Shown here: positions 7,071 to 42,607 of the stretch, in pieces
How positions within the stretch are numbered: position 1 is the first letter of the stretch
How the letters are laid out: each line of letters begins with the position of its first letter
Source: Paucibacter sp. KBW04
GTDB taxonomy: Bacteria > Pseudomonadota > Gammaproteobacteria > Burkholderiales > Burkholderiaceae_C
Assembly (NCBI RefSeq): GCF_003852425.1
Contig: NZ_QAJN01000004.1
Coordinates: 186,001 to 250,000, forward strand
Direction: 5' to 3'
DNA length: 64,000 bases
Position numbers and translations under genes: made by a program
Notes under the pieces: generated by a model
The model's input: the letters and a program-made list of their open reading frames with translations, nothing else
Database searches by the model: none
Told to the model about the DNA's origin: nothing

Positions 7071-8599
7071 TTCGACAACTTGAAGGCCCCCACCGCCTGC
7101 ACCAGGCGCTGGGCTTGCTGATTCAGGCCCTCGGCGGCGGCGGCGCTTTGCTCCACCAGGGCGGCGTTCTGCTGCGTGGCCTGGTCCATCTGCGAGACGG
7201 CCGACTCCACATTGCTGACGCCGCTGCTTTGCTCGGCGCTGGCCACGCTGATCTCGGCCACGATATCGCTGACGTTCTTGATCGCACTGACGATCTCGCC
7301 CATGGTCTGACCCGCCTGGTTCACCAGGCCCGTACCCTGCTCCACCTGCTCGACGCTGGTGCTGATCAGGGTCTTGATCTCGCGTGCAGCCGCCGCGCTG
7401 CGGCCGGCCAGGCTGCGCACCTCGGTCGCCACCACCGCAAAACCGCGCCCCTGCTCACCCGCGCGGGCAGCTTCCACCGCCGCATTCAGGGCCAGGATAT
7501 TGGTTTGAAAGGCGATGCCGTCGATGACGCTGATGATGTCGGAGATCTTGCGCGAACTGGCATTGATGCCGCTCATGGTTTCTATCACCCGCTCCATCAT
7601 CTGCCCACCCTGCTGGGCCACGCCGGATGCCCCGGCCGCCAGCTGATTGGCCTGCCGCGCGTTGTCGGCGTTATTGCGCACATTGACGCCTAACTCATCC
7701 ATGGTGGAAGCGGTTTGCTGCAGAGCATTGGCCTGCTGCTCGGTGCGGTTGGACAGATCTTGATTGCCTTGCGCGATTTGCACACTGGCCGTGGCCACCT
7801 CGTCGGCATTGGACTTGACCTCGCGCACGATGTCGGCGATATGGCTTTGCATGGCCGCCATCGAGCCCAGCAGCTGCTGGGTTTCGGCATTGCCCTGCGT
7901 TCGAATTTCGGAGCTGAGAATGCCCTGGGCCATGCGTTCAGCCACGGTCACCGCATGGGCCATGGGCCCGGCGATGGCACGGGTCAACCAGGTCGAGGCG
8001 GCCAGCATCAGTGCCGCAGCGGCCAGCATGGCCAGGCCCATGGCCCATTGGGTTGTGCGCACCGCCTGCTGCGCTTCCTCGTTGAGCTTCTCGCCGTTCT
8101 TCTCGATGGCTTCGCTCAGCCCCGCCATCAGCTTCTCCAACTCGCCGAAGCTGCGCTGCAAGCCCTGCGCAGACTGCTGCGCCAGCTGAATATCCGTCTT
8201 GGCGGCATTGATGACCTGCTTGGCATCGGCGCCATAGCGGCTCATGGTGGGGCGCACATTCTTCAGCGCGGCCCGGCTTTGCTCGGACAGCTGCAGCGTC
8301 TCCAGCTTGTCCAGCGCCTTTTCAAACACGGCCACATGCTCGGCCAAGTCCTTGCTGGCCTCTTCCACATGCTCGGGGTTCTTCTCCATCGCGCCCAGCA
8401 AGGCCAGCTGCGCATCGCCGCGGATGGCGTCATGCATCATGTCGGCTTCTTGGCTCAGCTGCAGGGCGCTGCCGGCCGAGATGGCGTCGTCCACGGCCGA
8501 GCCCAAACGGGCCGAGGAAAACAAACCAATGCCCCCGGTCAGCAAAGCTCCCAAGACGCCGGCCAGGCCCAAGGCGGTGATCTGCGTGCGCAATTTCAT
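7067..8599 (-). CDS. Methyl-accepting chemotaxis protein
   Basis: A 510-residue inner-membrane chemoreceptor. It has TM1 at about residues 9-30, a periplasmic four-helix-bundle sensor (31-185), TM2 (about 188-210), a HAMP segment, and a long coiled-coil signalling domain with the conserved hairpin tip around ISDIISVIDGIAFQTNILALNAAVEAARAGEQ split over the CheA/CheW contact region. The ATG follows GGGAG. No sigma-28 box was found upstream. The ligand is unknown. The nearby cheR-like gene at 15.9 kb belongs to a different signalling cluster. Confidence 0.92.
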   Translation of the reverse strand: MKLRTQITALGLAGVLGALLTGGIGLFSSARLGSAVDDAISAGSALQLSQEADMMHDAIRGDAQLALLGAMEKNPEHVEEASKDLAEHVAVFEKALDKLETLQLSEQSRAALKNVRPTMSRYGADAKQVINAAKTDIQLAQQSAQGLQRSFGELEKLMAGLSEAIEKNGEKLNEEAQQAVRTTQWAMGLAMLAAAALMLAASTWLTRAIAGPMAHAVTVAERMAQGILSSEIRTQGNAETQQLLGSMAAMQSHIADIVREVKSNADEVATASVQIAQGNQDLSNRTEQQANALQQTASTMDELGVNVRNNADNARQANQLAAGASGVAQQGGQMMERVIETMSGINASSRKISDIISVIDGIAFQTNILALNAAVEAARAGEQGRGFAVVATEVRSLAGRSAAAAREIKTLISTSVEQVEQGTGLVNQAGQTMGEIVSAIKNVSDIVAEISVASAEQSSGVSNVESAVSQMDQATQQNAALVEQSAAAAEGLNQQAQRLVQAVGAFKLSN

Positions 8600-8821
8600 C
8601 GAGCGACTCCCTGCTACAACGGTGTCCGCAAGCCTGCTCCAGGAGCCAGCTGTGGAGAGTCCTCACTTGAACCGAAATAACCCCGCCTGTCTAGAGCGTC
8701 GTGGCTGCAAGCAACAGGAATTTTTCGCCTCTACTCCATGTTTTGAAGCCCGCCAGGAGCCGGCATAACGCAAGATCAAAGCAGTTGGGCCTGGGGCCCA
8801 CAAAGGTGTTGCGGCCAGGGC

Positions 8822-9478
8822 TCAGACCAAGTCCCTGAAGGGACCGCTGCCAAGCCAGCGTTCGATCTGCGCTTGGCGGTCATTGCCCCAGAAGGACTCG
8901 CCGTCGATGATGAAGAAGGGCGCGCCAAACACGCCGGCGGCGATGGCGGCCTCGTTGGCAGCCTTGAGCCTGTCCTTCCACTGCGGGTCTTGCCAGGCGG
9001 CCTGTGCCGCTTCGGGGTCCAGGCCGCACTCTTGCGCCAAGGCCTTCAGCTGATTTTCGTCGTTAAGAGCCACATTGCGGGTGAAGTAGGCCCGCAAGCC
9101 GGCCTTGGCCCAAGCCACGGCGCGGGCGGGGTCCTGGGCATGCAGCCACCAGAACACGCGCGCGGCGTTCTGCGTGGCGATGGGGAAGGCGCTGGGCTGC
9201 TTATAAGGCAGGCCGGCGAAATAGGCCGAGCGGGCAAAGTCGCGCAGCACATAGTCGCGCTTGAGCGGATAGGCCACCGGAGGCTTGAGCTCGGCGGCCT
9301 GAAAGGTCACGCCCAGCAAGATGGCATGCCACTGCACCGGCCGACCATGGCGGGCGGCCACGGCCGCGATCCACTCCGAGGCGATATAGGAATAGGGCGA
9401 GGAGAAATCGAAGTAAAACTGCACGGGGCTGCGCGGCACGGCCTGCACAGCACGTTCGGGAAAGGCGGACTCGATCAT
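8822..9478 (-). CDS. 2-hydroxychromene-2-carboxylate isomerase family protein (DsbA fold)
   Basis: A 218-residue thioredoxin/DsbA-fold protein. The N-terminal motif [12 protein letters not shown] has Ser in place of the CxxC cysteines, as in glutathione-dependent kappa-class GST and HCCA isomerases, and the C-terminal [13 protein letters not shown] with cis-Pro followed by FWGNDR is a family hallmark. It has no signal peptide, so it is cytoplasmic. It is monocistronic, and nothing nearby belongs to naphthalene degradation, so the natural substrate may differ. Confidence 0.85.
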
Positions 9479-9760
9479 GGGCCCACCTTAGTCCAATTCA
9501 GCGCCGCGCCACCCCCAGGGTTTCACCCAGGCACCCTGTGTTTCGGGGGCCAATTGGCCTGGCTGGGCGCGGCTCGCACAAGCAAGACGCGGCCCGCCCG
9601 TTCCATTGGCGCCACGGGATCAAAAAAGATGGGGATGGCCGCGCCGCTTTTGTCGAATGATCATGGCGTAGCGCAAAAAAGAAGAACGTCGTCCGCCACC
9701 GGTTTCATAAGCGGCGAGAGCGCGCAGCAGGGAGCGTCAAGAAGAAGTCGGAGCCTCGCT

Positions 9761-11056
9761 ATGTTGACCCCTGAACTCGCCCAGATGCTGACCCAGGAAG
9801 TGGCCCAGCGCATCGACCTGCCCAAGCGGGCCATCGCCCTGGTCCTGGCCGGCGGCCGTGGCAGCCGCCTGCACCATCTGACCGACCGCCGCGCCAAGCC
9901 GGCCGTCTACTTTGGTGGCAAATTCCGCATCGTTGATTTCGCCCTGTCCAATTGCCTGAACTCCGGCATCCGCCGCGTCGGCGTCATCACCCAATACAAA
10001 AGCCACAGCCTCTTGCGCCATCTGCAGCGCGGCTGGGCTTTTTTGAAAAGCGAGATGAATGAGTTCGTCGATCTGCTGCCGGCCCAGCAGCGCATGGACG
10101 AAGAGAGCTGGTACCGCGGCACGGCCGACGCCGTCTCGCAAAACCAGGACATCCTGGACGGCTACAAGGCCGAGTACGTCGTCGTGCTGGGCGGCGACCA
10201 TATCTACAAGATGAACTACGCCCTGATGCTGGCCGACCATGTGGCCAAAGGCCGCGAGTGCACGGTGGCCTGCATCGAGGTGGGGCGCGAGGAGGCCAAG
10301 GGCTTTGGCGTGATGGCGGTGGACAAGGAATGGAAGATCACCGACTTCGTCGAAAAGCCTGCCGATCCCCCCACCCTGCCCGGCCAGCCCGAGCGCTGCC
10401 TGGCCAGCATGGGGATTTACATCTTCAACGCCCAATTCCTGCGCGATGAGTTGGCCCGCGATATGGCCGACCCCAGCTCCAGCCACGACTTCGGCAAAGA
10501 CATCATCCCGCGCGCCGTGCGCCTGGGCCAGGCGGCGGCTCACCCCTTCAGCATGAGCTGCGTGGGCAGCGCGCCGGACAAAGCGCCCTACTGGCGCGAT
10601 GTGGGCACCATCGATTCCTACTGGGACGCCAATATCGACCTCACCGCCACCGAGCCCCTGCTCAATCTCTACGACACCCAGTGGCCGATCTGGACCTACC
10701 AGGCCCAGCTGGCCCCGGCCAAGTTTGTGCACAACCAGCCCGATCGCTGCGGCATGGCGCTGGAGTCGCTGATCTCGGGCGGCAGCATCATCTCGGGCCA
10801 GGTCTTGCGCTCGGTGCTGTTCTCCAGCGTGCGGGTGCACTCCTACAGCCGGGTCGAATGGGCGGTGCTGCTGCCCGATGTGGAGGTGGGCCGCCATGTG
10901 CGCCTGAACCGGGTGGTGGTGGACCGCGGCTGCCGCATCCCCGACGGCCTGGTCATCGGCGAGGACCCGGTGGAAGACGCCCGCCGTTTCTTCCGCACCG
11001 ATAGCGGCATCACCCTGGTCACCCGCGAGATGCTGGCACGCCTGCAAGCGCCATGA
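9761..11056 (+). CDS. glgC: Glucose-1-phosphate adenylyltransferase
   Basis: A 431-residue ADP-glucose pyrophosphorylase, the committed step of bacterial glycogen synthesis. It has the nucleotide-binding loop [21 protein letters not shown], the [16 protein letters not shown] region, [10 protein letters not shown], and a C-terminal left-handed beta-helix. The ATG at 9761 fits the family; an open frame extends far upstream but covers the opposite-strand isomerase gene. glgA follows directly and the stop overlaps a possible upstream glgA start. The 282-base gap before it shows no obvious operator. Confidence 0.93.
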
Positions 11057-34442: not shown

Positions 34443-34480
34443 GGGGTCAGGTCTTGCCTTTAGATTCGAGACCCGACCCC
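34443..34480. repeat. Dispersed repeat GGGTCAGGTCTTGCCTTT, copy B
   Basis: Begins GGGGTCAGGTCTTGCCTTTA and continues ATTCGAGACCCGACCCC, forming a hairpin with arms GGGTC(A)GGTCT and its complement. It is almost identical to copy D at 38841-38877. It sits in the 438-base non-coding stretch between udk (34241) and the MAPEG gene (34680), which otherwise holds the thiolase remnant and no gene. Confidence 0.8.
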
Positions 34481-34679
34481 GAAGCCGCTGTGATCCGTAT
34501 GCCTCTGGACCAGAAGCGCGAGCAGGATGTTGAGGTCGTCACGCCCAAGCTGTAATTCAAGCGAGGATCGCTTGCGCGAAGCTGAGGCGCGCTTCGGGTT
34601 CGGGGCTTGACTCTAGACAAACCCCGACCCGATCTCGATGCCTAGAATTTCGCCAGGCTTCACACTCGCCCGGCTCGCC

Positions 34680-35109: not shown

Positions 35110-35796
35110 TCAGCTGATCTGGCGGCCAAGAATCGCCAGTTCTTCCCGCAGGCTGTAGCCCTGGGCTGGGCGCCCGCCGGAGTGGCGGATCAACTCGGTC
35201 TCCACCAGCACGCCTTCGTCCAGGACCTTGCGCCGGAAGTTGTCTTTGTTCGTCGAGGTGCCGGTAACGATCTCGTACACGGCCTGCAGGTCGGCCATGC
35301 GGAACACCTTGGGCAGCAGGTGCGCGACGATGGTGGAGTAGCTGGCCTTGGCCTTCAATCGCGCCAGCGCGGTATCGATGAGCTGCAGGTGGTCAAAAGC
35401 CAGGTCACGGGTCTTCAAGCTCACGCTCGGGATCACCTCGTGCAAGGTGAGCTTGCCGGCGTCCACCAGGGGCTGCACCGCGTCCTGGTGATGCAACGCC
35501 AGATGCACCACGCTGGCCGACCAGCCACGCGGGTCGCGCTTGGGGCCAGAGGCGGTGCAAACCTGCTCCAGATGGCTGGGCTTGAAGCCCAGCTTGCTCC
35601 GCAGGATGCGCAGCATGGCCGCATCCGTCGAGGCATCGACCTTGCCGGCCTCGGGGTCCGCATAAACATAACCGCCCGGCAGGGCCAGTTGACCAGCGCA
35701 GGGTTCGTCCTCGCGCTGCATCAAGGCGACCATGAGCTTCTCACCGACCAGGGTGAGGATGACGGCATCGACGGTGAGGACGGGGGTCTTGAACAT
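35110..35796 (-). CDS. nrtR: NrtR-type Nudix-related transcriptional regulator of NAD metabolism
   Basis: A 228-residue protein with an N-terminal Nudix-like domain (LTVDAVILTLVGEKLMVAL; LALPGGYVYADPEAGKVDAS, in which the Nudix box is degenerate) and a C-terminal winged helix (about 155-225, MADLQAVYEIVTG, NFRRKVLDEGVLVET). This two-domain plan is that of NrtR repressors, which sense ADP-ribose. It starts 49 bases after nadV ends on the same strand, in an operon with the NAD-salvage genes it presumably controls. Confidence 0.88.
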   Translation of the reverse strand: MFKTPVLTVDAVILTLVGEKLMVALMQREDEPCAGQLALPGGYVYADPEAGKVDASTDAAMLRILRSKLGFKPSHLEQVCTASGPKRDPRGWSASVVHLALHHQDAVQPLVDAGKLTLHEVIPSVSLKTRDLAFDHLQLIDTALARLKAKASYSTIVAHLLPKVFRMADLQAVYEIVTGTSTNKDNFRRKVLDEGVLVETELIRHSGGRPAQGYSLREELAILGRQIS

Positions 35797-35845
35797 GGTC
35801 TTTAAACTCTCTTGCGCTTGGAGCAAGGCTCGGGCTCTTCGGCGC

Positions 35846-37444
35846 TCAGGCTGCAGCTCCAGCGCCTGCCTTGGCCCTGGCGCGGATGTCGGCAAAGCTT
35901 TGCTCGCGCAGCAGCTTGCCGTTCTCAAACACCAGCTCCAGCAGGCCTTGCGCTTCTTGCTCGGGCGTCTGGCGATCGAAGAGCACATAGTCCCCGTCGA
36001 TCTTTTCCACACGCAGCAGGCCAACGGCTGACTTCTTGACGCCGCTGTCGGTCTTGGGGTCCTTGGACAGCTCGCGAAGCTCGCCGCCGACGATGCCTGC
36101 CGTGGCCTTCATGGCCATGCCGAAGCTGTCGCGCGTCAAGAACTGATAGCTATAGCTTCCCACGCCTAGCACCACATTGGTCGAGGCGAAACCCTTGGCC
36201 TGCAGGCGCGACAAGATCTGCTGCGCCCGCTCCAGAGTGATCGAGTCGCCGTAAATCAAGCCCACGCGTTCATGCAGCACCTTGTAGCCCTTGGCGGTTT
36301 CGCTGCCGCCGAAGATGTCCCACAGGCATTGCACCGAACCGCGCCGCTCGGCTTCCGAAATCAGATGGCCGTTGCGGAGCACGGTGTAACGGCCCTGCTC
36401 GTCACGCAGGAGCTGATCCTGTCCATCGACGGCCAATTCGGTGTCCAGATAGCCGCTGAGGATAAGCACCGGGTCGCCGGAGTCGGGCCTGAACACCACC
36501 TTGGCCTGACCCAAGGCATTGGGCTGGCGGGCCAGGATCTCCTGCTTGAGCGTGGCGGCGTGGTGGGTGATGACCTGCCAGTAGTCCCAGGTGTCAGAGA
36601 CGATGCTGACGATGCCGCTGGGGTAGACCTCGGTGATCAGGCGGCGGAAGGTCGAGACCTCATCCAGCTGACCGCCCATGCTCATTACGCTGTGCTCGGT
36701 GGCAGGCACCGAGCCGCCCAGCAGTTCCTTGTCGCTGTCGGCGCCGTAGAAGTCTTCCGCATAGTCAATCGCCGAGACGGTGTCCGTGCCGCAGAAGCTG
36801 ACCAAATGGCCGGCACCGCAACGGCTGGCGTCTTCCGGGTTGGCCATGCCACGGGCCGAGAAGTCATGCGCCTGCCAGTCGATGAAGCTGGCATCACCGC
36901 CGGTTTGTTCGCAAAAATCCTCCAGCAGGCGGCGATACTGGCGCGCGATGGTGGCCACCGTCATCGGCTTCCAAACACCGTTGGACAGCATGGTTTCCAG
37001 GTAGTTCACCAGCCAGAAAAAGGCGGGGACGGTTTCGGTGATGGTGAACACCGGCACCTTGATATTCACCAGCGAACCTTCGGGCAGCGCCTTGATGCGA
37101 ACCGGCAGATAGCCCAGCTCATGCAGCGCTTCGATGTGATGCACAGGCACGGCACCTGGGCCCAGGGCGTTATCCATGCGGCGCTGGTAGCGACGCACGG
37201 CCTTGTCCTTGGGCAGTTGAAAGAATTGCTGGTCGAACAGCTCGATCAAGAACTCCTTGATAAAGCCCTGCAGCCCAAAGAAGAGCACCCGCCCGTCAAA
37301 GGCGCCAGGGCCTTGGCGCAGCACCGGCGCCAGCCGATCCGAGCGTGGCGTGAAGTTCGAGTACACCTTCTGGGTGCCCTCGGGGTACTGGAAGACATGG
37401 CCCGACTTGTAAAAATCGATCAGGTTCAGCGGATTCATTTTCAT
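35846..37444 (-). CDS. nadV: Nicotinamide phosphoribosyltransferase
   Basis: A 532-residue NAMPT/NadV-type enzyme, clearly longer than nicotinate phosphoribosyltransferase. It opens NPLNLIDFYKSGHVFQYPEGT, contains DFSARGM, GTDTVSAIDYAEDFYG, ATEHSVM and VSDTWDYW, and the PRPP-binding VFRPDSGDPV. The reaction is nicotinamide + PRPP to NMN. The ATG follows GAGGA by four bases. It lies between prs and nrtR; the PRPP synthetase upstream would supply its co-substrate. Confidence 0.93.
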   Translation of the reverse strand: MKMNPLNLIDFYKSGHVFQYPEGTQKVYSNFTPRSDRLAPVLRQGPGAFDGRVLFFGLQGFIKEFLIELFDQQFFQLPKDKAVRRYQRRMDNALGPGAVPVHHIEALHELGYLPVRIKALPEGSLVNIKVPVFTITETVPAFFWLVNYLETMLSNGVWKPMTVATIARQYRRLLEDFCEQTGGDASFIDWQAHDFSARGMANPEDASRCGAGHLVSFCGTDTVSAIDYAEDFYGADSDKELLGGSVPATEHSVMSMGGQLDEVSTFRRLITEVYPSGIVSIVSDTWDYWQVITHHAATLKQEILARQPNALGQAKVVFRPDSGDPVLILSGYLDTELAVDGQDQLLRDEQGRYTVLRNGHLISEAERRGSVQCLWDIFGGSETAKGYKVLHERVGLIYGDSITLERAQQILSRLQAKGFASTNVVLGVGSYSYQFLTRDSFGMAMKATAGIVGGELRELSKDPKTDSGVKKSAVGLLRVEKIDGDYVLFDRQTPEQEAQGLLELVFENGKLLREQSFADIRARAKAGAGAAA

Positions 37445-37483
37445 GGGGTCCTCTTCAGTGTTCTTTGAAAGAATGGCCTGAGC

Positions 37484-38347
37484 TCAGGCAGGCGTGGGGG
37501 GTTGAATTTGGGTCAGTGCCGCCAGGGCGGGATCGGCGCAGAAGGGCGTAAAAATGCCGTCGAAGTGCGCTTCCAAAGGGCCCAGCCCTTTGGTGAAGAG
37601 CCCGTGCGTAACGTAAAGAAACAGCGGCTGCTGGCTGCGTTCGCGCAGCGCTGCCGCCAGAGCGATGAAAGTGCCGCCACCATCGCAGATGTCGTCCACC
37701 ACCAGCAGCGGCAGCTCGGGAAGCTCGGACTCAACAGCCGCGTCGCTGAGCTTGCCGGTCAAGGGGTTGCGGCGCTTGCTCGCATAAACCACGGGCGCCC
37801 CGATCGCCTTGGCCACAATCTCCACACGCTTGCGCGCGCCGGCATCCGGTGCGACGAGGGCAAGCTTTTCGATAGGGGCCAAGGCCCCCTCGCGCAGCTG
37901 CTTGACGTAATGAGCCGCAGGGACGACGCGAACGTTCTTCAGCAAGGCAGGAACGACATCGCTGTGGGGGTCGCTGACGGTGACGGAGGCGAACTCCGCG
38001 CTATTGATCAGCTGGCAGAAAACGGCGGCCGACAGCGGCTCACCTTCGACGGCGACGCGATCCTGGCGCGCGTAAGGCACGTAGGGCAGCCGCAGATGAA
38101 TCTGCGCCCCGGCCCGAACCGCACGCTTGAGCGCGTCGGTCAAAAGCAGTAGATCCATCACCCCATCGGCCGAATAGAGACCGGCCGTAATGGTCCAGCA
38201 GCCATCTGTACAGCCAAGCACGCTCTCGGGCAAACGCACATGGCGCTCGCCGCCGGGAAATTGAAGGCGCTGAATGCCCAAGTGTTCCCGGGCGGTCTCG
38301 AGGTCGCCAAGGAAGGGGGAGGAGTGAAGCGTCAGGGTGGATTGCAT
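37484..38347 (-). CDS. prs: Ribose-phosphate pyrophosphokinase (PRPP synthetase), NAD-salvage type
   Basis: A 287-residue PRPP synthetase, shorter than housekeeping Prs (about 315 residues) and of the form found with nadV. It has the LPYVPYARQDRVA ATP-site segment, SDPHSD metal site, APDAGARKRV, the catalytic-flap region YASKRRNP, and the PRPP loop LLVVDDICDGGGT. It makes PRPP from ribose-5-phosphate and ATP. It is the first gene of the operon prs-nadV-nrtR. A palindrome lies 14 bases before its start codon. Confidence 0.9.
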   Translation of the reverse strand: MQSTLTLHSSPFLGDLETAREHLGIQRLQFPGGERHVRLPESVLGCTDGCWTITAGLYSADGVMDLLLLTDALKRAVRAGAQIHLRLPYVPYARQDRVAVEGEPLSAAVFCQLINSAEFASVTVSDPHSDVVPALLKNVRVVPAAHYVKQLREGALAPIEKLALVAPDAGARKRVEIVAKAIGAPVVYASKRRNPLTGKLSDAAVESELPELPLLVVDDICDGGGTFIALAAALRERSQQPLFLYVTHGLFTKGLGPLEAHFDGIFTPFCADPALAALTQIQPPTPA

Positions 38348-38381: not shown

Positions 38382-38666
38382 TTAAACAAACAAAACAAGC
38401 AGTAAACGGATGTGAGATCTTCACCAGGGCCAATCGAGTCGAGCGCTAGAGGCCAGGGCAGTCAAGGGGGCGCTCAGCTGGTCGAAGTGCCCTTGCTCTG
38501 CCCGGCTTTGATGGCCCGCTGCTGTGGCGCCAACAGCGATGGCGCTTGCCCGCCACTCGCTGGCAAGAGCGTCGGTAGCCCTCCCGCTGCCAGCAAGAGT
38601 CATCCACCGATTGCTGCCCTTGCAATCGCCTCGCAACGCAACTCAAGATCTCGGGCCGGCGATAAA

Positions 38667-38708
38667 GGGTCAGGTCTTGCCTTTGGATTCGAAACCTGGC
38701 TCCGACCC
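38667..38708. repeat. Dispersed repeat, copy C
   Basis: GGGTCAGGTCTTGCCTTTGG is followed by ATTCGAAACCTGGCTCCGACCC. The left part equals the other copies; the right arm is altered and has an insertion, so the hairpin is weaker. It lies 133 bases before copy D. Confidence 0.75.
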
Positions 38709-38800
38709 TTCGAGTCAAGCAGTTGATCAAGAAGTTTGAGGACTTGAAATTTAGGGCCTGGCCTTGCGCCACCTTGGGCGCCTCCGCTGAGCGGAGGGCC

Positions 38801-38837
38801 GGCGGCCAGTGCCGAGCCAAAGCCACTGGCGGGCGGA
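38801..38837. repeat. Hairpin repeat (GCCAGTG...CACTGGC), copy 2
   Basis: GGCCAGTGCCGAGCCAAAGC then CACTGGC repeats the unit at 32821-32862 with a few base changes, stem arms conserved. It abuts copy D of the other repeat family (38841), suggesting a composite element. Confidence 0.65.
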
Positions 38838-38840
38838 GAG

Positions 38841-38877
38841 GGTCAGGTCTTGCCTTTAGATTCGAGACCTGACCCCA
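38841..38877. repeat. Dispersed repeat, copy D (complete hairpin)
   Basis: GGGTCAGGTCTTGCCTTTAG continues ATTCGAGACCTGACCCC. The arms GGGTCAGGTCT and AGACCTGACCC are exact inverted complements, making this the most complete copy of the family in the window. It lies 186 bases upstream of the island gene. Confidence 0.82.
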
Positions 38878-39062
38878 AAGCCGGCTCATACCTTCTCCCG
38901 ACCTCGTACCCCCCCCGTTGGCAAGGCCGAAAACCAGCGATGATTGAGGTGGCAAGGTACAAAGGCGGTATACGCAAGCAAAGGCATGCGATGGTGCTTT
39001 GCCAAAAGGGATGATGGCCACGCCCAAGACAGCGGCCGCACTAAATAGAACAGACTAAATCT

Positions 39063-41177
39063 ATGGCACTCGACGTTCCAGGCGGCCGCAAAAACACGGC
39101 TGTGAACCACAGCGACTATGTTGTTTTTGAGGAAATGCTCTCAAACGCAATCGACTCCTACCTAATTCGGAGGAGCCGTTTGGCTACAGCGCCTCCTTTC
39201 TGGATGAGCGTAGTTGTCAAAATTTCGCAGGCCGACTTGTTCGATTCGAAGTTCAGTGTCGAGATTTCCTGCACCGACAACGGTGCAGGCTTTGGCGACG
39301 ACGAGGTAAAGGCCTTCGTGACGAAGGATTCAACCTTTAAAGACCTTCTACAGATTCCGGGTATCGGTAAGTGCAAAGGGGCGGGGCGAATTCAATTTTT
39401 CCACCACTTTGAGCGGATGCTCATCGACAGCGTGTTCGAGCGCGATGAAAAAATTAAACGCAGGCAACTCCAGGTCGACGACTCCACTCGCTTAGTTTCC
39501 GAGCAGTCATTCGTCACTACGCCTGCCGATGGAAGCCAGATTACGACCACGTTCACCTTGAAGGGTCGTCGACAGGTTGCTCTGACTCCAGAACAAAGAG
39601 CCGACGAAGCTTCGGTACCTGAGATTTTCTCGGCGAAGGCGATTGTCGATCACCTTTACACCACTTTTCTCCAGCGCTTCATCATCCTGAAGAAGCTCAT
39701 CGGTGACTTCAAGATCGAAGTGGAGTCCCGCCACGGCAACGTTTTCAAGACGGAGTTCATCGACGACAAAGTGCTACCGGAACCCGTTGGCGAGGTCGCG
39801 CGCCTGCCACTTGTTTGCGCCCATAGCAAGGAGTTGCGCACTGGCCCCACGCTGCTGATTACAAGGTACTCGTTCTCCCAGGCCATCTTCCCGACCTTCC
39901 AGCATGAAGTGGCCCTCTGTGCCAACTCAGCAGTTGTCCAGCAAATCACCAAACGCTACCTTCGCAATTCGATTGATCGAAAACGTCCTACAGCAGGACG
40001 CTTTGAGTTACTACTCGTCGAAAGTGATCTTTTCGAAGAGAAGGTGAACCAGCAGCGAGATGGCTTCAACATCCCGGCGACCTGCACTGAGAGCGATACC
40101 CTAAAAGAGGAATTTTCGCTGGAAGACGTGGTCAGCTCGCTCGAAGACTACGTTTTCCAGATCATCACTCCGCCGGATTTCGACAAGGACGGCTTAGTTC
40201 GTTCCACCGAGCAGCGCTTCGGCATCACCCGGCAGATGATGGAGGGGACGAATATCAAGATCCACTACGGCGACAACGAAGAGAACATTGCGCGCCGCGT
40301 TTTGAAGAAGCTTCAAGAAGAGATCGTCGGCGACACCTCGAACCTTTTCACGATGAAGAACGAGCTGTTGAAGCTAGACCCTCGCTCCGCTGACTTCAGA
40401 GGTAAGGTCTCAGAACTTGCCTGGAAGTACACGAGTTCTATCAAAAAGATGGACATGACGAACCTGTCCCAGCTCGTGGTCCGTCGCAGCGCGATGATCG
40501 AGGTGCTCGGCATGGCCGTTGACGGCCTGCTCAACTGTCAGGCACCGGAACCTGGGAAGAAGAACGAGAACGAGCGGATCATCCACAACATCTTCTTCCC
40601 CATGGGGAAGGACTCCATAGAAACGGCAGAACACGACATCTGGCTGCTCAACGAGGAGTACCAATACTTTGAGTACATCGCGTCGGACAAACCTCTGAAG
40701 TCCATCAAATGGACAGCCACAGAGAGTATGTTCGAGCCAGATATTGATGAGAGCTTGGAGAAACTTTTCGCAGCTAACAACAAAAACCATGACTCAAAGC
40801 GACCTGACATCGCGCTCTTCACAAAGGAAGGTTCCGCAATCATCATCGAGTTCAAGGCACCAGATGTCGGTCTTCAGGAACATATCCCAGACTTAGCTCA
40901 GTACGCGCGGCTGCTAGCGGCAAAGTCCAATGGCCGAATCAGAAAATTTTATGGCTATCTGATTGGCTGCACCATTGATCCCAATCGGATGGACACGTCG
41001 TATACGCAGTTCGCCGACGGCCGGGGTTTTTTCAAAAGCGACCAGTTGCGGGACTTTGCGACCGGTAGAGCCTATGGCGAGATCTACACCGAGGTGCTGC
41101 TTTACCAGCACTTCATCGACAGGGCTGAAGTGCGGCTCCGTGTCTACAAGGACAAGTTGAAGGTTCAACTGGACTGA
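39063..41177 (+). CDS. GHKL (MORC/Hsp90-like) ATPase with PD-(D/E)XK nuclease-like C-terminus
   Basis: A 704-residue orphan protein. The N-terminal ATPase shows Glu24 and Asn28 in EEMLSNAIDS (N box), DNGAGF at 72-77 (G1) and GIGKCKGAGRIQF at 100-112 (G2/lid). A transducer-like middle and a helical part (about 380-480) follow. The C-terminus has RPDIALFTKEGSAIIIEFKAP-type spacing: Asp582, Glu596 and Lys598 form a D-x13-ExK site. There is no signal or membrane segment. Codon use is much less GC-rich than its neighbours, and it is flanked by repeats, so it was probably acquired. GHKL ATPases joined to nucleases occur near restriction-modification and anti-phage genes; a defence role is inferred. 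No clear Shine-Dalgarno is seen. Confidence 0.75.
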   Translation: MALDVPGGRKNTAVNHSDYVVFEEMLSNAIDSYLIRRSRLATAPPFWMSVVVKISQADLFDSKFSVEISCTDNGAGFGDDEVKAFVTKDSTFKDLLQIPGIGKCKGAGRIQFFHHFERMLIDSVFERDEKIKRRQLQVDDSTRLVSEQSFVTTPADGSQITTTFTLKGRRQVALTPEQRADEASVPEIFSAKAIVDHLYTTFLQRFIILKKLIGDFKIEVESRHGNVFKTEFIDDKVLPEPVGEVARLPLVCAHSKELRTGPTLLITRYSFSQAIFPTFQHEVALCANSAVVQQITKRYLRNSIDRKRPTAGRFELLLVESDLFEEKVNQQRDGFNIPATCTESDTLKEEFSLEDVVSSLEDYVFQIITPPDFDKDGLVRSTEQRFGITRQMMEGTNIKIHYGDNEENIARRVLKKLQEEIVGDTSNLFTMKNELLKLDPRSADFRGKVSELAWKYTSSIKKMDMTNLSQLVVRRSAMIEVLGMAVDGLLNCQAPEPGKKNENERIIHNIFFPMGKDSIETAEHDIWLLNEEYQYFEYIASDKPLKSIKWTATESMFEPDIDESLEKLFAANNKNHDSKRPDIALFTKEGSAIIIEFKAPDVGLQEHIPDLAQYARLLAAKSNGRIRKFYGYLIGCTIDPNRMDTSYTQFADGRGFFKSDQLRDFATGRAYGEIYTEVLLYQHFIDRAEVRLRVYKDKLKVQLD

Positions 41178-41344
41178 CGGTTTTCTCCAGGAATTGCCAT
41201 ACAGCTAGACGAATGCGTCGGTAAGCGAATCGCGGATCGGGGTCAGGGCTCTCTAAAGTCCAGCACCGCGTGCAAGCTCTGCAAGGTTCCAACACAACTC
41301 GGTCGAACCCCACCGGAATTTCCGAGGGCTACCCCCAAAGAACG

Positions 41345-41378
41345 AAAAGCCAGTGGCCCCAAAAGGCCGCTGGCTTTT
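41345..41378. terminator. Bidirectional rho-independent terminator
   Basis: AAAAGCCAG-T-GGCC-CCAAAA-GGCC-G-CTGGCTTTT: a 14-base stem with one mismatch, flanked by A on the left and T on the right, so it can act both ways. It lies between the GHKL-nuclease gene (+) and the thiolase gene (-) and should stop the long leftward operon. Confidence 0.85.
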
Positions 41379-41425
41379 CTTCTTCCCGTCTAAACCCGAG
41401 CCTATTTCAGCCCGGTACTAACTGC

Positions 41426-42607
41426 TTAGATCAGCTCCACACCCATTGCCGTCGCTTCGCCACCGCCGATGCACAACGAAGCCACGCCGCGCTTCAGGCC
41501 ACGGTGCTTCAACGCGCCGATCAGCGTGACCAGGATGCGAGCACCCGAGGCGCCGATGGGGTGGCCCAGGGCGACCGCGCCGCCATTCACGTTGACGATT
41601 TCATGCGGGAGCTTGAATTCGGCCATGGCGGCCATGGTGACGGCGGCGAAGGCTTCGTTGACTTCCCAGAGGTCGACGCTCTTGGCGTCCCAGCCGTTCT
41701 TGGCCAGCAGCTTTTGGATGGCGCCGACCGGGGCGGTGGTGAACCATTCGGGCGCGTTGGCGTGCACGGCATGGCCGACGATACGGGCCACGGGCTTGAC
41801 GCCCAGCTTGGCGGCGGTGCTTTCACGCATCAGCACCAGGGCGGCGGCGCCGTCGGAGATGGAGGACGAGGTGGCGGCGGTGATGGTGCCGTCTTTGACG
41901 AAGGCGGGCTTCAGGCCAGCGATCTTGTCCAGCTTGGCCTTGAAGGGCTGTTCGTCCTTGCTGAAGATGGTGTCCACGCCGCGGTTCGTGACCGTGACGG
42001 GGGCCATTTCCCAGGCGAAGGAGCCGTCTTCATTGGCGCGCTTGGCACGCTCGGTGGAGGCAACAGCGAAGGCGTCTTGCGCTTCGCGGCTGAAGGCGTA
42101 CTTGCTCACACACTGTTCGGCGAACACGCCCATGGCCTTGCCGCGCTGGTAAGCGTCTTCCAGGCCGTCCAGGGCCATGTGGTCGTACATGGCGGTGGCG
42201 CCGTACTTCACGCCCTTGCGAGCGAACATCAGGTGGGGCGCGTTGGTCATGGACTCCATGCCGCCGGCGATCAGCACGTCGGCGCTTTCGGCCTTGAGCG
42301 TGTCGTGGGCGAACATGGTGGCGCGCATGCCGGCGCCGCACATCTTGCTCAGGGTGACGGCACCGACCGATTGCGGCAGGCCGGCCTTGAGCACGGCTTG
42401 GCGGGCAGGAGCTTGGCCTTGGCCGGCCATCAGGCAGTTGCCGATGAAGGCTTCTTGAATCGCGTCGCCGGGGATGCCCGAGCGCTCAACCGCCGCCTTG
42501 ATGGCCACGGCTGCCAGTTCCCAAGCTTGCAGGCCGGCGAAGTCGCCCAGCAGGCCGCCGATGGGCGTGCGTGCGGCGGAAACGATAACGATGGAATCAG
42601 AGGACAT
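41426..42607 (-). CDS. atoB: Acetyl-CoA C-acetyltransferase (thiolase)
   Basis: A 393-residue thiolase of the acetoacetyl-CoA type. The nucleophilic Cys is in TLSKMCGAGMRA, the His in NVNGGAVALGHPIGASG, and the second Cys in SLCIGGGEATAMG. It would cleave acetoacetyl-CoA to two acetyl-CoA, the last step of leucine degradation, or run in reverse for PHB. GGAGAG stands ahead of the ATG. It is the last gene of the run starting with ivd, 30 bases after aceK. A phaA role cannot be excluded, but no phaB/phaC is nearby. Confidence 0.93.
   Translation of the reverse strand: MSSDSIVIVSAARTPIGGLLGDFAGLQAWELAAVAIKAAVERSGIPGDAIQEAFIGNCLMAGQGQAPARQAVLKAGLPQSVGAVTLSKMCGAGMRATMFAHDTLKAESADVLIAGGMESMTNAPHLMFARKGVKYGATAMYDHMALDGLEDAYQRGKAMGVFAEQCVSKYAFSREAQDAFAVASTERAKRANEDGSFAWEMAPVTVTNRGVDTIFSKDEQPFKAKLDKIAGLKPAFVKDGTITAATSSSISDGAAALVLMRESTAAKLGVKPVARIVGHAVHANAPEWFTTAPVGAIQKLLAKNGWDAKSVDLWEVNEAFAAVTMAAMAEFKLPHEIVNVNGGAVALGHPIGASGARILVTLIGALKHRGLKRGVASLCIGGGEATAMGVELI

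Follow-up and report, generated by a model that had tools for sequence, protein, structure and literature searches.

The gene at positions 39063 to 41177 of a 64,000-nucleotide stretch of the Paucibacter sp. KBW04 genome (contig NZ_QAJN01000004.1; the whole stretch is called the window here) was probably acquired horizontally, and its product is probably a single-protein phage defense of the paraMORC3 / VcSduA kind, a DNA nuclease gated by ATP. The computed basis is a GHKL ATPase with an S5-like module, a helical stalk, and a Shedu-like PD-(D/E)XK nuclease, with intact catalytic residues in both ATPase and nuclease, together with a sporadic distribution and relatives in mobile and restriction-linked contexts. 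The design is already published, as paraMORC3 in 2008 (PMC2292703) and as VcSduA in 2025 (PMC12137116). The protein is a good defense candidate, and the kind of system is not new.

Domain architecture and conserved residues

The open reading frame (ORF) starts with ATG and encodes 704 amino acids (aa) without an internal stop, and a search of its own genome found the gene as a single, stop-free copy. Its parts are as follows:

39063..41177, + strand, stop codon included: whole gene, 704-aa GHKL ATPase / PD-(D/E)XK nuclease protein (ORF; alignment with 51 relatives)
39063..39572, + strand: GHKL (Bergerat-fold) ATPase domain, residues ~1-170 (residues invariant in 52 of 52 rows; Hsp90/MORC/MutL fold of residues 1-406)
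39132-39146, + strand: N box, E24/N28
39276-39290, + strand: D72-G76
39366-39389, + strand: G102-R109
39633..40052, + strand: S5-like transducer (second) domain, residues ~191-330, boundaries approximate (secondary structure of the model; region covered by the Hsp90, MORC, and MutL alignments)
40119..40535, + strand: helical stalk, residues ~353-491 (secondary structure of the model)
40560..41174, + strand: PD-(D/E)XK nuclease domain, residues ~500-704
40572-40586, + strand: E504-H508
40806-40808, + strand: D582
40848-40856, + strand: E596-x-K598

An earlier note on this DNA had described the N, G1, and G2 boxes of the ATPase (E24...N28, DNGAGF at 72-77, and GIGKCKGAGR at 100-109) and a C-terminal nuclease-like site (D582 and E596-x-K598), all of which were recovered at exactly these residues. 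In the alignment of the window protein with 51 relatives, all 52 rows keep E24, N28, D72, G74, G76, G106, G108, and R109 of the ATPase as well as E504, H508, D582, E596, and K598 of the nuclease. As the catalytic residues are invariant throughout, the motifs are not due to chance. E504 and H508 were missing from the earlier note, as was the insertion boundary described below. The region of the S5-like domain carries a conserved VNxxRxxF motif, whose arginine R332 directly follows the domain and is kept in 51 of the 52 rows; R332 is a candidate for a second-domain residue that would touch the ATP phosphate.

The full-length relatives include proteins from Curvibacter (84% identity across the whole length, no stops), a Comamonadaceae metagenome assembly (74%), and Undibacterium (72%). 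Relatives with ~40-44% identity were found on four alphaproteobacterial plasmids, in three genomes of the phylum, and on four IMG/VR contigs (one ends at the contig edge). More distant ones (~16-23%) come from other bacteria and plasmids and from additional IMG/VR contigs. For the 52 rows, duplicate fetches of one gene were removed, L007/L089 and L034/L084 were counted once each, and L042 (truncated), L062 (past the contig end), L050 (taken as a near-copy of L044), and L036 (weak match) were left out. The truncated piece in L042 (7968-8531) is a C-terminal part of the close subfamily (50% identity) in a prophage that reads as P2-like. On viral contigs, the window protein alone retrieved no relative, and alignment queries found 21 and 5 loci. 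Phage records gave only a single weak partial match, and E. coli genomes gave none to the DNA of the viral-contig member L045.

The model of residues 1-406 has the Hsp90/MORC/MutL fold and aligns, over residues ~1-380, with the two-domain module that MutL, MORC, and Topo VI-B each contain. As the fold search with the whole protein was uninformative on the nuclease half, this half was folded by itself. With this C-terminal model, VIA-align places Shedu nucleases at the top of the 50 entries listed, and nearly all of these, judging by their titles, are nucleases of the PD-(D/E)XK type, restriction enzymes included. The predicted fold is thus of the Shedu nuclease type, and the PD-(D/E)XK assignment, on which the earlier note had staked its proposal, held. 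Pfam indicates the same two domains by weak matches under the curated cut-offs, with HATPase_c (0.048) at the N-terminus and VRR_NUC (0.0024) and HSDR_N (0.0027) at the C-terminus, in addition to HSDR_N_2 (0.016). The PDB sequence search gave one row (E 0.38) for the single protein; with the family profile, the rows were limited to weak GHKL matches and others that look like chance. Matches in a viral structure library (topoisomerase, RIIA, and similar) were read as matches of the GHKL half and not used.

Relation to Shedu, paraMORC3, and VcSduA

Classical Shedu SduA proteins (E. coli 8ps4/8ps5, B. cereus 8ti8/8ti9) are the best structural match to the nuclease domain, and a profile match with seven Shedu proteins had E 6.9e-7; unlike the window protein, these seven show no N-terminal GHKL motifs upon reading. 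Within residues 1-406, the protein has the two-domain fold and the motifs of the MutL, MORC, Hsp90, and Topo VI-B ATPases, whereas its C-terminal half is a Shedu-like nuclease instead of the C-termini of those families.

paraMORC3 combines GHKL and S5 domains with a C-terminal RE-fold nuclease that carries E-D-ExK, and it is sporadic, prevalent in proteobacteria, and in some cases standalone (Iyer, Abhiman and Aravind 2008; PMC2292703). GHKL motifs, S5 domain, and RE-fold E-D-ExK are all present in the window gene, whose family is likewise sporadic and laterally mobile in the distribution sampled within the phylum. Compared with the 2008 description rather than with member sequences, no difference was found, and by its features the window protein is a paraMORC3 protein.

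VcSduA from Vibrio cholerae consists of a GHKL ATPase and DUF4263 and was placed in Shedu type I-D (PMC12137116). It protects, with no partner restriction gene named, and protection is lost in the variants E27A (ATPase) and K557A (nuclease); a dimer model was given, and cutting of invading DNA with survival of the host was proposed (PMC12137116). The window protein resembles it in the order and kind of domains, the C-terminal PD-(D/E)XK nuclease, the catalytic Glu of GHKL and Lys of ExK, and the location on a mobile island. In place of the VcSduA sequence, we used five stand-in proteins of its design, and hhalign matched the window family to them end-to-end (99.6%, E 1.3e-24, 520 columns, ~18% identity), although only three of the five match SduA_C, and weakly so. 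The stand-in L073 as a query on viral contigs gave no relative. Apart from this low identity, the window family differs in lacking an SduA_C match, and the activity of VcSduA is published, whereas that of the window protein is predicted. By analogy, the window protein most likely works like VcSduA, and the ATPase-gated nuclease mechanism suggested in the earlier note matches this published system of the same design with its two loss-of-function variants.

GHKL ATPases close a dimer clamp upon ATP binding. This property and the dimer model of VcSduA (PMC12137116) suggest that an ATP-closed dimer clamp should control the nuclease. The window protein would dimerize, and on binding ATP its paired GHKL heads would clamp down on DNA or on a DNA structure made by the phage. 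Through transducer and stalk, this closure may reach the paired nuclease domains, which would then cut the invader's DNA and leave the host alive, in the way proposed for VcSduA. Possible triggers are DNA ends, replication intermediates, unmodified DNA, or a phage protein. The protein could serve as a compact, testable example of an Hsp90/MutL-type ATP clamp that may control a Shedu-type nuclease.

In the literature, covered mostly outside subscription papers and bioRxiv preprints, we did not find the window's branch named; the relevant papers are PMC2292703, PMC8011034, and PMC12137116. The main text on DefensePredictor (PMC13092281) contains neither "GHKL" nor "MORC", and "HATPase" occurs once, in a figure legend on domains of predicted systems.

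Distribution and insertion site

With the own genome counted, matches were found in 8 of 299 genomes of the family (E<=0.001; two are full-length close copies), in 13 of 398 of the phylum (E<=1e-10; some partial), and in 2 of 369 of the class (E<=1e-20). The protein search within the genus gave a match in 2 of 18 genomes, and a close copy is absent from all 17 others; this absence rests on the protein search, as the DNA search scored 16 candidates per genome. The second match (genome G1036, residues 502-610, 25% identity, E 5.2e-4) lies elsewhere in its genome. This weak partial match to the nuclease part (C1:2207014-2207307) falls within an open frame of 629 residues, which may encode a distant relative at a different location.

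The gene has a GC content of 52.6% against a window mean of 64.6% and is the lowest-GC stretch of its length in the 64 kb; only 3 of 619 gene-length sliding windows are as low, each overlapping the gene. This bears out the lower-GC island of the earlier note, and the repeats that it saw upstream were recovered as a 44-nt palindrome that occurs at 38667 and again at 38840. The features in and around the insertion site are as follows:

38400..41431, no strand: segment without match at the same-genus empty site, ~3.0 kb replacing 123 bp
37484..38347, - strand: left flank, ribose-phosphate diphosphokinase-like gene, at the empty site too
41426..42607, - strand: right flank, acetyl-CoA acetyltransferase (thiolase), at the empty site too
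38667..38710, + strand: REP-like 44-nt palindrome, diverged copy
38840..38883, + strand: REP-like 44-nt palindrome, best copy
34444-34487: REP-like 44-nt palindrome, third window copy

In the empty site of genome G013, the ribose-phosphate diphosphokinase-like gene and the thiolase gene lie 123 bp apart, and the aligned flanks stop at window position 38399 and restart at 41432. The empty site rests on this one genome, because a left-flank match is listed for G013 only; the thiolase gene was matched near full length in 16 of the 17 other genus genomes and by short pieces only in G1041 (76% complete). The last part of the segment, from ~41340, probably belongs to the site, since the empty site carries a similar hairpin. 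Reading the translations of the ORFs between 34 and 47 kb, we recognized no integrase or transposase, and neither a tRNA scan of the whole window nor Rfam near the gene gave a match. Promoter-like sites (2 vs 1.0 expected) and terminator-like sites (4 vs 4.8 expected) gave no signal.

The palindrome has four copies in the genome (<=3 mismatches), three of them in the window, whereas the reversed control pattern has none. Short matches to it occur in at least 8 of the 17 other genus genomes, among the matches listed. On the left side, the short ribose-phosphate diphosphokinase-like gene adjoins one for a nicotinamide/nicotinate phosphoribosyltransferase (35846-38347, - strand, with 35110-36024), and the cluster contains a gene resembling an ADPR-responsive NtrR/NrtR-type repressor, under the cut-off of that model. 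This pairing resembles the two-gene pathways with which phages rebuild NAD against NAD-depleting defenses, and the cluster may be plain NAD salvage.

Neighborhoods of relatives and alternative explanations

Read from their translations, the surroundings of the window gene differ from those of each of its three closest relatives, which gives four different neighborhoods. In line with the earlier note, homologues are therefore not fixed at one syntenic place, as is also seen from the site that is empty in one same-genus genome and from other homologues that lie on plasmids, in prophages, or within restriction operons. L076 and L077, which form the sister pair to the four-member clade of the window (support 0.937), lie in hsd operons; beside the window gene, no hsd gene was recognized. 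In this pair, the gene is downstream of hsdS, which it overlaps (by ATGA in L077 and by 11 bp in L076), and upstream of hsdR. The latter is directly next in L077; in L076 (5257-11091), a Fic-domain gene separates the two, and hsdM is split over two frames. These hsd genes were named by reading translations, and PADLOC and Pfam counts agree. The overlaps with hsdS raise the question of whether the clamps act alone or with type I restriction.

In V. fluvialis, a member comes directly after a Shedu gene where a type I restriction locus ends; in Salinivibrio one follows hsdS, and in Rhodococcus one lies near type I genes. Other members were found near SAVED/ThiF/nucleotidyltransferase genes, which we take to be CBASS, next to an Abi gene, close to genes for SIR2 and DarT/macro proteins, flanked by a gene with UvrD-type helicase annotation and one annotated as restriction endonuclease, and between an MzaE-like gene (33.6 bits, far under the cut-off) and genes read as type III Mod/Res. 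For the R. etli and Tabrizicola members and the window gene, among others, no such defense neighbor was recognized.

In a matched count, PADLOC families numbered 286 at 17 member loci vs 40 at 17 controls. The PADLOC type I methyltransferase (5 of 130 member neighbors) and the Pfam families N6_Mtase (3), ResIII (4), and Methylase_S (2) stand against none among the 25 control families listed (133 control neighbors). The Pfam families total 102 and 158. Of each table, PADLOC and Pfam alike, the first 25 families were considered, so lone restriction proteins in the controls are possible, and the search for type III genes in the controls was confined to these tables. PADLOC rows occurred in the controls, too (mad3, 4 of 133; single helicase-like rows), and AAA_21 and SMC_N were common to both sets. 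The control stretches lay half a contig away in 11 genomes and at the start of contig C1 in 6 (two short, with 4981 and 11534 bases), and removal of two long control ORFs (3014 and 1651 aa) left 133 control vs 130 member neighbors. With phmmer, 7 of 54 member loci, a set outside which the window lies, showed type I genes; the queries were taken from member loci, so their source loci count by construction.

Several results weigh against the proposed defense nuclease. In Foldseek, the nuclease model obtained weak E-values (best 0.01, SduA 0.11), and Pfam SduA_C (DUF4263) gives no row for the window protein at E<=1 and none for 26 members at E<=0.01. PADLOC (PADLOC-DB 2.0.0) and NCBIfam likewise find nothing for the window protein and, among the 26 members, no consistent family besides weak HSP90 or kinase-like rows (TmtA in one, 0.0028), so that the branch is unrecognized by Pfam's Shedu profile and by both collections. 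Even the stand-ins, with GHKL in five of five, have SduA_C in only three (E<=1), the best with 27.2 vs a cut-off of 27 bits; they carry W at the R332 position in four of five and R332 itself in one, and they keep E504 in three and H508 in four. As a long branch of the tree (support 0.857) parts the 52 rows from them, the window family is a separate branch. We do not formally file the protein under Shedu, because the SduA_C profile does not match it, though fold and profile comparisons call its nuclease Shedu-like. Enrichment in defense islands, which the earlier note had raised, agrees in direction with type I/III restriction genes at 3 of 17 loci (L076, L077, L088) vs none seen at 17 controls, but the enrichment is small (one-sided Fisher p ~0.11, hand-calculated) and suggestive only. 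Beside the window copy itself, no restriction or other defense gene was recognized, and its contig has no N6_Mtase match.

The protein could instead be an accessory subunit of type I restriction, with an ATPase clamp that acts together with unlinked HsdRMS on DNA marked or translocated by the complex. The hsdM-hsdS-gene-hsdR order in L076 and L077 would suit this role, as would the own genome, where other contigs carry two strong matches to N6_Mtase (HsdM-type), and the unlinked restriction systems offered as one option for solo paraMORC3 (PMC2292703). We consider it unlikely, however: reading found no hsd gene near the window gene or near any of its three closest relatives, phmmer found none near those three and type I genes at few member loci overall, hsdM of L076 is split, and VcSduA protects with no partner restriction gene named (PMC12137116). 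It is quite unlikely that the window branch is a distinct Shedu-like effector whose clamp is licensed by the type I complex, such that HsdMS/HsdR would mark unmodified phage DNA or travel along it and the GHKL clamp would close there. The nuclease would then be a second, restriction-coupled killing step, and solo copies such as the window gene would rely on a type I enzyme encoded elsewhere in the genome or have become independent of it.

A MutL-like ATPase-nuclease that serves the host in DNA repair or a mismatch-type function is very unlikely in view of the sporadic and mobile distribution, the lack of a close copy in the 17 other genus genomes, the relatives on prophages, islands, and plasmids, and a nuclease half that is nearest to Shedu among the structures compared. 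Similarly, the lack of a recognized integrase or transposase beside the gene and the broken relatives (L042 truncated, the G550 match split over two frames) would fit a decaying, non-functional remnant of a mobile element, but the intact frame, the kept catalytic residues, and the 84% identity to the stop-free, full-length Curvibacter copy make this extremely unlikely.

At several IMG/VR loci, phage tail, tape-measure, or terminase genes adjoin the gene, as read from translations. In L049 and L057 (~7800-10000), members lie within phage tail modules just ahead of a tape-measure-like gene, an unusual place for cargo. In L087 (9246-15462), a member adjoins a gene that reads as PAPS-reductase/DndC-like and uncharacterized genes, possibly another defense operon.
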